The notes under the pieces are model-generated. The model was not told the origin of the DNA. It saw only the letters and a list, made by a program, of their open reading frames with translations, and searched no databases. A program made the position numbers and the translations under genes. DNA of 64,000 nt from Haladaptatus sp. R4 (GTDB lineage Archaea > Halobacteriota > Halobacteria > Halobacteriales > Haladaptataceae), in the NCBI RefSeq assembly GCF_001625445.1, contig NZ_LWHG01000021.1:930001-994000 (forward strand), given 5' to 3'. Shown here in pieces: positions 46,266 through 49,254 of the stretch (position 1 is its first letter; every line of letters begins with the position of its first letter).

Positions 46266-48245
46266 ATGGGACAAACACTGACGGAAAAGATTCTCGGCGA
46301 GCACCTCGTCGAGGGCGAACTCGAAACCGGTGAGGAAATCGGGATCGAGATTGACCAGGTTCTCACACAGGACACCACGGGGACACTCGTCTGGCTCCAG
46401 TTCGAGGCACTCGACATGGACGAAGTCCAGACCGAGATCGCGGCCCAGTACTGTGACCACCAGACCTACCAGTTCGACTTCAAGAACACGGACGACCACC
46501 GATTCCTCCGCTCCGCGGCAGGCACGTTCGGTGCACACTACTCCCGTCCGGGTAACGGTATCTGTCACAACGTCCACAAGGAGAACTTCGCCGCACCCGG
46601 CAAGACGATGCTCGGGTCTGACTCCCACACGCCGACTCCCGGTGGCCTGGGTGAACTCGCGATCGGTTCCGGCGGTCTCGACGTCGCAGTCGCCATGGGT
46701 GGCGGCCCGTACTACATCGAGATGCCGGAGATCGTCAGCGTTCGCCTCGAAGGCGAACTCCCCGAATGGTCCACCGCGAAGGACGTCATCCTCGAGATGC
46801 TCCGTCGCCTCTCCGTGAAAGGTGGCGTCGGCAAAATCTTCGAGTACACCGGCCCCGGTGTCGAGACGCTTTCCGTTCCGGAACGGACGACCATCACCAA
46901 CATGGGCACGGAACTCGGCGCGACGACCTCCATCTTCCCGACGGACGAGAAGACCGAGGAGTGGCTCAGCGCCCTCGGCCGCGAGGACGAGCACGTCGAA
47001 CTCCAGGCCGACGACGACGCGGAGTACGACGACGAGATCGTCATCGACCTCTCCGAGGTCGAACCGCTCATCGCACAGCCATCGATGCCCGACAACGTCG
47101 TCCCTGTCCGCGAAGTCGCCGGACAGTCGGTCGACCAGGTCATGATCGGTTCCTGTACGAACGGTGGCTACGAGGACATCCTCCCCGCCGCGAAGATGGT
47201 CGAAGGCCGCACGGTCAACCGGAAGACGGACCTCATCGTCGCCCCGGCATCCAAACAGGCATCCGAGATGCTCGCCCGCGAGGGCTGGGTTGCTGAACTG
47301 ATGGCGGCAGGCGTCAACTTCTCCGAGGCGACCTGTGGTGCGTGTATCGGTATCGGTCACGTTCCGGCCTCGGACTCCGTTTCCCTGCGTACGTTCAACC
47401 GCAACTTCGAGGGTCGCTCCGGTATCGAGGACGACTCCGTCTACCTCTGTTCGCCCGAAGTCGCCACGGCGGCGGCCATCAAAGGCGAAATCATCGACCC
47501 GCGCGACCTCGCCGACGAACTCGGCGACCTCGACGCGCCCGGATTCGAGATGGGTAACGACTACGGCACCACCGCCGACGACCCCGACCTCATCGCCCCC
47601 GACCAGGCCGTCGACGACGAACTCATCAAAGGCCCGAACATCGGCGACGTCCCGCTGAAGGACGAACTCGAATCCACGCTCGAAGGCCCGGCCCTGCTCA
47701 AGATGCAGGACAACATCACGACCGACCACATCATCCCTGCGACGCAGGACATCCTGATGTACCGGTCGAACATCCCGAAGCTCTCCGAGTTCACGCTCTC
47801 GCGCGTTGACGACGACTTCGCACAGCGCGCACTCGACTCCGACGGTGGTTTCCTCGTCGCTGGCGAGAACTACGGTCAGGGTAGCTCGCGCGAACACGCG
47901 GCACTGTGCCCGATGTACCTCGGCGTGGACGGCGTCCTCGCACAGAGCTTCGCCCGCATCCACAAGGCGAACCTGTTCAACTTCGGTCTCATCCCGCTCA
48001 CCATCGACGCGGACGACTACGAGAAGATCGAACAGGGCGACGACATCGAAATCGTCGACGACGTTTCGGAAGCGGTCCGCTCCGGCCAGGAAGAGTTCAC
48101 GGTCAGCGTGAACGGCGACTGGGAACTCACCGCGACGCTCGACGCGTCCGAACGTGAGCGCCAGATTCTCGCCGACGGTGGCAAGCTGCCCCACACGAAG
48201 AAGCAAGTCGAAGGCGGCGACGCAGCGGCCTCCGCGGACGACTAG
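46266..48245 (+). CDS. acnA: Aconitate hydratase
   Basis: This 659-residue iron-sulfur enzyme isomerises citrate to isocitrate in the TCA cycle. The cluster cysteines appear in MIGSCTNGGYEDI (~296) and ATCGACIGIG (~357, 360); LGSDSHTPTPGGLGELAIGSGG and the swivel-domain ENYGQGSSREHAALCP are also present. The domain order and length match the single-chain haloarchaeal and mitochondrial-type aconitase. The protein is extremely acidic, in keeping with high-salt cytoplasm. It stands alone; the nested inverted repeat starts five bases after its stop. Confidence 0.95.
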   Translation: MGQTLTEKILGEHLVEGELETGEEIGIEIDQVLTQDTTGTLVWLQFEALDMDEVQTEIAAQYCDHQTYQFDFKNTDDHRFLRSAAGTFGAHYSRPGNGICHNVHKENFAAPGKTMLGSDSHTPTPGGLGELAIGSGGLDVAVAMGGGPYYIEMPEIVSVRLEGELPEWSTAKDVILEMLRRLSVKGGVGKIFEYTGPGVETLSVPERTTITNMGTELGATTSIFPTDEKTEEWLSALGREDEHVELQADDDAEYDDEIVIDLSEVEPLIAQPSMPDNVVPVREVAGQSVDQVMIGSCTNGGYEDILPAAKMVEGRTVNRKTDLIVAPASKQASEMLAREGWVAELMAAGVNFSEATCGACIGIGHVPASDSVSLRTFNRNFEGRSGIEDDSVYLCSPEVATAAAIKGEIIDPRDLADELGDLDAPGFEMGNDYGTTADDPDLIAPDQAVDDELIKGPNIGDVPLKDELESTLEGPALLKMQDNITTDHIIPATQDILMYRSNIPKLSEFTLSRVDDDFAQRALDSDGGFLVAGENYGQGSSREHAALCPMYLGVDGVLAQSFARIHKANLFNFGLIPLTIDADDYEKIEQGDDIEIVDDVSEAVRSGQEEFTVSVNGDWELTATLDASERERQILADGGKLPHTKKQVEGGDAAASADD

Positions 48246-48249
48246 AATC

Positions 48250-48726
48250 CACCTTTTACGACGGTCGAAAGCCAGCGTTCGGGTCGTTGCGACCCGAACA
48301 CTGGCAGCCTCCCTGTAAAAGCTGGACCAAAAACACTCCTCTTTCATTTTGACGAACGACTCGCAGAGCGAGTCGTTCGTCTCCATTCAATCGTCGGTTC
48401 GGAAAATCTTCGATTTTCCGGAGTCTCAAAATCGCAGGGCGATTTTGATGGCTCGTAAGACCGCAGGTCTTTCGGTGTTGATGCTAGCGACTAGCGGTTG
48501 GTCAGTCTACTGTATTGGGTTGGTGAAGCCGACTTCACACAAACGACGGAATCTACACAACCGCTGGCCGCTAGTATTCTTCCGGAAAATCCCTGATTTT
48601 CTGGGCCGACGACTGAATGGGGATGGCTGACTCGCAACGCGAGTCAGCCATCGAAATGAAGGAGGAGTGCTTTTGGTCCAGCTTTTTATCGAGGGTCGCT
48701 CCGCGACCCTCGCAATAAAAAGGTGG
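48250..48726. repeat. Nested inverted repeat filling the acn-rimI interval
   Basis: Two 81-base arms, 48317-48397 and 48606-48686, are inverted copies of each other (65 of 81 positions match), with an inner pair at 48483-48500/48558-48575 and outer ends CCACCTTTT (48250) and AAAAGGTGG (48718). Each arm contains its own hairpins: GACGAACGACTCGC/GCGAGTCGTTCGTC on the left and GGCTGACTCGC/GCGAGTCAGCC on the right. Several differences between the arms are paired changes that keep the inner stem. It may be a non-autonomous element or a structured RNA; no coding frame looks real. Confidence 0.85.
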
Positions 48727-48768: not shown

Positions 48769-49254
48769 GTGACAGCCACTGCGAGCGAGACGGGGTCGAT
48801 TTCGATTCGCCCCGCCGAAGATGCGGACTTGCTCGCCATCTTCCGCATCGAGAAGGCGTCGTTCGAACAGCCGTGGCCGTTCGCCGCGTTCGAGCGGTAC
48901 GTCGGCGAGCCGACGTTTCTCGTCGCCACGGACGGGGTGAAGATCATCGGCTACATCGTCGCGGACGTGATTCCGAACCACGGACAGCCACTCGGGCACG
49001 TCAAGGACCTCGCGGTGCATCCGTCCCGCCGTGGCGAAGGAATCGGGCGGGAATTGCTCAAGCGAGCGCTGTCCGGGTTGCAGTTCCAGTCAACACACAG
49101 CGTGAAGCTCGAAGTTCGGGCGAGCAACGAACCGGCGATTTCGCTGTATCAGGAGTTCGGGTTCCGGTATCTCCGGACGATACCGCAATACTACGGCGAT
49201 GGTGAGGACGCGCTCGTGATGTTAGTCGAACTCGACCCGGTCGGCACCGAGTGA
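48769..49254 (+). CDS. rimI: Ribosomal protein S18-alanine N-acetyltransferase (RimI-like GNAT)
   Basis: From GTG 48769 (VTATASETGSISIRPAEDADL) the 161-residue protein has GNAT motif A in VKDLAVHPSRRGEGIGRELLKRAL, the RASNEPAISLYQEFGFRYLRTIPQYYGDGEDALVM ending typical of RimI/Ard1. The archaeal member acetylates protein N-termini in a ribosome-linked fashion. The upstream sequence in the same frame lies inside the inverted repeat and is not conserved, so GTG 48769 is preferred; a TATA-like CTTTAG lies about 28 bases upstream. Confidence 0.88.
   Translation: MTATASETGSISIRPAEDADLLAIFRIEKASFEQPWPFAAFERYVGEPTFLVATDGVKIIGYIVADVIPNHGQPLGHVKDLAVHPSRRGEGIGRELLKRALSGLQFQSTHSVKLEVRASNEPAISLYQEFGFRYLRTIPQYYGDGEDALVMLVELDPVGTE

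Follow-up and report, generated by a model that had tools for sequence, protein, structure and literature searches.

The element lying between acn and rimI in Haladaptatus sp. R4 belongs, with near certainty as regards both the family and its anatomy, to a large family of haloarchaeal 3'-flank elements that are mosaics of palindromes. This family is real, widespread and apparently undescribed, and no description of its end modules was found in the openly accessible papers that were searched. Overall, the best explanation, and on balance a probable one, is that portable end modules stand at gene ends, where they would terminate transcription, are maintained at the DNA level and are copied between slots. 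The window, by which the whole stretch of 64,000 nucleotides analysed is meant, contains this element at positions 48249–48726.

The two-ended element measures 478 bp (48249–48726) and, like other two-ended copies, is delimited by a terminal inverted repeat, CCACCTTTT...AAAAGGTGG. The stop codon of acn, encoding aconitase (PF00330), is located at 48243–48245 and CCACCTTTT begins at 48249, 3 nt past the stop; on the other side, the likely start of a rimI-like GNAT acetyltransferase gene (PF00583) is at 48769, about 40 nt past the end of the element (AAAAGGTGG, 48726). The left end module (48249–48331, + strand) abuts the acn stop codon and consists of the triplet CCA, the T-tract CCTTTT, a variable palindrome GCCAGCGTTCGGGTCG/CGACCCGAACACTGGC (48271–48305), replaced by other palindromes at orthologous sites, and AAAAGC-TGG-ACCAAA. 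The left conserved linker AAAAGCTGGACCAAAAAC (48319–48336, + strand) pairs also with the right linker. Further inwards are the hairpin GACGAACGACTCGC-AGA-GCGAGTCGTTCGTC (48351–48381), of which variants occur in other copies, the left copy of the hairpin module CGGAAAATC-TTC-GATTTTCCGG (48400–48421), present in most copies, and two small hairpin modules, CTCAAAATCG...CGATTTTGA and AAGACC-GCA-GGTCTT (48425–48475), found also in the copies L015, L018 and L019. The central segment (48484–48574) has CTAGCGGTTGGTC at one edge and the inverted partner ACACAACCGCTGGCCGCTAG at the other, and holds a DUF6176 gene in two relatives. It is followed by the right copy of the inner module, CCGGAAAATC-CCT-GATTTTCTGG (48582–48604), the hairpin GATGGCTGACTCGC-AAC-GCGAGTCAGCCATC (48622–48652) and the right end module (48672–48726, − strand). 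This module belongs to the TTTTTATTGCGAG type and in the − strand reading shows the triplet CCA, T5, a palindrome at 48688–48714 and the linker TGGACCAAA. In addition to the hairpins at 48351–48381 and 48622–48652, the segment contains others at 48271–48305, 48400–48421, 48425–48448, 48457–48472, 48582–48604 and 48683–48719.

An earlier note on this DNA had described the interval as a 477-nt hairpin of hairpins, and its observation of the symmetry was confirmed. The inverted arms (48317–48397 and 48606–48686) are complementary at 65 of 81 positions, the best of 60 shuffles of the segment reaching 45 of 81, and they can be extended to 48317–48422 and 48581–48686 (84 of 106 complementary). Both hairpins at 48351–48381 and 48622–48652 have perfect 14-bp stems and 3-nt loops, and the four differences between their stems are all two-sided. 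Folding of the two strands as RNA, a check proposed in that note, yielded −285 kcal/mol (z −19) for the + strand and −275 kcal/mol (z −22) for the − strand. The assembly artefact that the note had considered can be excluded, since the acn–rimI interval of five other species holds related but different sequences.

As a single conserved structure, the nested hairpin did not hold, because the inner arms of most two-ended relatives pair no better with each other than with foreign arms. In a set of 18 two-ended elements, some of which represent one locus retrieved twice, the window element reached a score of 73 between its inner arms, against a median of 40 for other combinations; arms above the cross-combinations were found in 4–5 of the 18 (the window element, L019, L179, L242 and, marginally, L207). 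Moreover, the end palindromes and inner modules of the acn–rimI interval in G008 and G006, two further Haladaptatus genomes, differ from those of the window. The large symmetry thus corresponds to two inverted copies that carry the same module set. Conserved long-range pairing of the arms was rejected; their mirror symmetry is neither general nor a conserved structure, and the conserved part is the end module. The note had offered two explanations, copying of whole modules and selection on structure. The former is supported by near-identical modules at unrelated loci of one genome and different ones at the same site elsewhere. As to the latter, paired changes are supported for single hairpins, but neither the 477-nt nesting as one conserved structure nor selection at the RNA level is supported.

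The frame of the end module is NNN-CCTTTT, a hypervariable palindrome, and AAAAGC-N'N'N'-ACCAAAAGC. Read outward from the gene, it comprises a free triplet, CC, T4–T6 on the sense strand, a near-arbitrary perfect palindrome, A4, GC, the complement of the triplet and A[C/T][C/G]AAAAGC. The same anatomy was observed in 97–116 modules, with the proviso that the family was recognised by its linker, which favours intact modules, and that neither species nor copies are independent. Copies are mosaics in which this frame is constant and the palindrome variable; they are extragenic, with palindromes in alternating orientations in the copies compared, range in length from 50 to more than 900 bp and occur in both one-ended and two-ended form. 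The small hairpin modules past the conserved linker CTGGACCAAAAGC include CCGGAAAATC-nnn-GATTTTCCGG and n-GACTCGC-nnn-GCGAGTC-n; the centre of the copies lies between CTAGCGGTTG and an inverted partner of it.

Parts of the element were detected at about 20 further places in the host genome and matches were obtained in all nine Haladaptatus genomes. The same end modules are present in a sister genus (by inference Halorussus) and in other haloarchaeal families. With a query of 138 bases, matches were found in 80 of 293 genomes, belonging to 23 genera, and the gapped end-module pattern was found in 291 of 392 haloarchaeal genomes (79 of 95 genera), about three quarters of those sampled and often in tens of copies; the reversed control pattern had almost no matches in the same genomes. 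A lack of related copies and of covariation elsewhere would, according to the earlier note, have spoken against the element; related copies and covariation were both found across the haloarchaea. In a wider sample of the phylum, matches outside the haloarchaeal order were few and scattered, except in one genus. In this genus (g143, family f19; G497, G516 and G528), the end-module pattern matched as many as 14 times, and these matches may represent an unrelated A+T-rich repeat. A viral or plasmid origin was rejected: the plasmid and phage collections PLSDB and INPHARED contained no match to the element, and the lone pattern match in IMG/VR looks like a chance occurrence in ordinary sequence.

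The placement of the end modules is strict. The distance from the 3' end of the same-strand gene to the start of the module was 0–10 nt (or an overlap) in 69 of 116 modules and at most 30 nt in 87 of 116, compared with 2.4% within 10 nt and 6.2% within 30 nt for random oriented intergenic positions of G006. Seven of the 116 modules were assigned to tRNA genes, and six of these start at most 2 nt past the tRNA end. The T-run is therefore situated just behind the gene and on its sense strand, so that the mark by which a terminator is recognised, a sense-strand T-tract shortly past the gene end, is present in the end modules. A T5C tract was sufficient for 95% termination in Haloferax volcanii, and a hairpin can terminate too (PMC7237163); many end modules have T4 only, weaker than the T5C assayed. 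Behind the approximately 1676 other genes examined in the relative G006, CCACCTTTT did not occur once; it is thus a part of the element and not the usual terminator of the genome, and its role as an ordinary genomic terminator was rejected. Ordinary genes end without the element, which is therefore not required. The end modules are, with modest confidence, probably portable transcription stops with a putative role in termination. Their T-tract would take over the termination of the adjacent gene, in place of the T-rich native terminator found where the element is absent.

Pairing within the end module was assessed on 97 modules collected without requiring it. Pairs were counted directly on the modules, since in an alignment of them different module frames and stems of unequal length were mixed. 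The outer triplet was exactly complementary to the linker triplet in 87 of them, while reshuffled partners gave a mean of 28 and a maximum of 39. The outer triplets seen were CCA, CGA, GAA, GCA, CAA and ACA; they vary yet stay complementary, which reveals covariation across the end module. In 91 end hairpins, 78 distinct arms were counted and 66 stems were perfect, with 1152 Watson–Crick pairs, 12 G.T and 16 A.C when mismatches were read in the direction of the RNA of the neighbouring gene. The 73 inner hairpins comprised 792 Watson–Crick pairs, one G.T and four A.C. Selection at the RNA level is expected to retain G.U and to purge A.C. Over some 160 stems, G.T and A.C numbered 13 and 20, respectively, which is no excess of G.T, although the counts are small. 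Together with the Watson–Crick character of the stems, the lack of a G.U excess indicates that palindromy is kept at the DNA level. Such maintenance as DNA is the likely situation, whether one arm serves as the template for the other or the hairpin is itself needed as DNA. Near-identical hairpin pairs showed 323 paired and 53 one-sided changes, in a set that includes unrelated hairpins and thus lends weak support.

The same data bear on the possibility of a structured non-coding RNA or an RNA-level regulator, which we consider very improbable. The very low folding energies (z −19 and −22) and the paired changes would suit such an RNA, but both strands fold about equally, G.T does not exceed A.C in either stem set and neither the loops nor the stem sequences are conserved. 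Nor did any Rfam family reach its gathering score, the best match scoring 22.9 bits where 100 was required; membership of a known Rfam family was rejected, as only sub-threshold noise was obtained.

Stems that are perfect at the DNA level are also what would be expected if the DNA structure itself were selected, in the form of cruciforms or of palindromes bound by protein, with a function in organising the chromosome or in relieving supercoils between genes. For gyrase-binding BIMEs a role in supercoiling and chromosome organisation has been proposed, and the location of the elements behind genes, often between converging ones, and their retention at shared sites agree with a similar function. 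Two-ended copies are, however, usually devoid of mirror symmetry, one-ended and collapsed copies persist and we know of no protein that binds the elements; this reading is accordingly judged quite unlikely.

The history of the sites was followed by comparison with relatives. Six Haladaptatus genomes carry an element in the acn–rimI interval, and the 10 host sites whose flanks could be mapped to G006, of which about two thirds of the chromosome was covered, are all occupied there. End modules had similarities of 0.80–1.00 to paralogues in their own genome, versus 0.41–0.75 to the module at the same site in G006; L025 was the sole reverse case (0.94). Hairpins found only in G006 (TTCTTCACGGC... 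and CGAGGGAGC...) are common to several elements of that genome. Since modules are closer to paralogues of their own genome than to the orthologous site, they have been exchanged between dispersed slots, or the slots have been refilled. Copying between slots is probably the main mode of change, and repeated site-specific reinsertion could be an alternative to it. If modules are copied within the genome, the slots are old and their contents young.

Several of the sites had particular features. In G001, the acn–rimI element (L055:1392-1470) is collapsed to a 50-bp palindrome with little beyond the two ends, and a 20-bp perfect palindrome stands behind acn. In G004 and G005 (L057:545-1460 and L058) the DUF6176 gene (PF19673) occupies the centre of the element, as if it were cargo or had been captured. 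In five relatives, a further motif (CACCTTTCAGC or GACCTTTCAGC) follows the acn stop codon ahead of the element; it looks like the degenerate end of an older copy and is absent in the window. In G006, an insertion of some 1.9 kb that is rich in A+T (G006:C1:99700-101600, L080–L081) lies beside a one-ended element, and its inverted GGCACTGTCTAGTTAAG-like repeats suggest remnants of insertion sequences.

Empty alleles were found as well. Sister genera likewise have acn and rimI side by side, but the site is empty in nearly all genomes with a readable acn, and T-rich tracts, usually T5–T6, follow acn at these empty sites. The tRNA-Leu site of Halorussus has alleles with the element, without it and with a remnant of it (G020), the downstream promoter region being intact. 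In two Halorussus loci (L259 and L263), the 3' end of tRNA-Leu is duplicated about 150 nt past the tRNA gene, with an element directly behind the duplicate, an arrangement that resembles an old integration site.

The occurrence of the element in some alleles of syntenic sites and its absence from others, together with the terminal inverted repeats and the tens of dispersed copies, could point to a selfish non-autonomous element (MITE-, foldback- or REPIN-like) that is moved by a transposase in trans and piles up behind genes because it is harmless there. We regard this as unlikely. No target duplication was seen by eye between filled and empty sites, whose flanks have diverged, and none of the 18 two-ended elements is a larger copy bearing a transposase. 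Of the nine Haladaptatus genomes, the host and three relatives (G001, G002 and G006), copy-rich ones among them, gave no match to the Y1 transposase family (PF01797), and mobility driven by REPIN/RAYT or IS200 was rejected for this reason. Furthermore, harmless insertion predicts neither the 0–10 nt offset nor shared sites with exchanged contents.

For the favoured explanation, portable end modules that are maintained as DNA and copied between slots, the following mechanism is proposed. Perfection of the palindromes would result either from copying on a hairpin template, with template switching at quasi-palindromes, or from a demand for the DNA hairpin. Within a genome, gene conversion or template switching would transfer modules among the elements. 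Template switching and gene conversion between palindromes are proposed here from general knowledge of quasi-palindromes. More tentatively, it is conceivable that the slot is inherited and its content is not, arbitrary perfect palindromes being rewritten and copied without a transposase as interchangeable terminators. The family would offer a natural experiment on the origin and upkeep of perfect palindromes in polyploid cells. If the termination role is true, an element that moves or is copied has repeatedly displaced the terminators of genes, and many of the low-complexity stretches between genes that make haloarchaeal annotation confusing would be accounted for.

Among known systems, haloarchaeal T-stretch terminators share with the end modules a sense-strand T-run a short way behind the gene (PMC7237163); the end modules differ from them in their conserved CC...linker frame, in being dispersed repeats and in the absence of CCACCTTTT behind other genes. 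The terminal inverted repeats that characterise MITEs are present in the element, at 48249 and 48726. Two groups of Haloquadratum elements are also comparable (PMC3119063). The palindrome-associated transposable elements (PATEs) are likewise haloarchaeal and non-coding, with near-terminal palindromes; they have no target duplication, and none was evident here. They are derived from IS605-type transposons and do not have terminal inverted repeats (PMC3119063), whereas the present elements possess such repeats in a host genome without an IS200-type (Y1) transposase, and hence fall outside the PATE definition. The small mobile repeats (SMRs) resemble the family in their inverted terminal repeats unrelated to known transposons, the lack of an evident target duplication and of a known mode of mobilisation. 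SMRs are about 80–110 bp long, uniform within a type (commonly >95% identity) and in many cases located in IS605-type elements (PMC3119063); in contrast, the elements of this family vary in length (50 to >900 bp), are mosaic and stand at gene ends, a distinction based on the published description of SMRs.

The closest similarity is to the REP/BIME repeats of bacteria, which are mobilised by RAYT transposases (PMC2817692). Both are extragenic and present in many copies, with palindromic modules that form mosaics in both orientations and show paired changes in the palindromes, and for both, roles in transcription termination and chromosome organisation have been suggested. In REP the palindrome is conserved and the flanks vary, whereas here the palindrome is hypervariable (78 arms in 91 end hairpins) and the flanks are conserved; no GTAG-type foot was seen in the modules, the host genome has no Y1 (RAYT) transposase and placement is much stricter, at ≤10 nt from gene ends with a T-tract on the sense strand. 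The family works most like BIME/REP mosaics but lacks two of their defining features, a conserved palindrome and a RAYT. It would be an archaeal counterpart of the bacterial BIMEs, the decisive contrast being, in a host without a Y1 transposase, a variable palindrome within a fixed frame.
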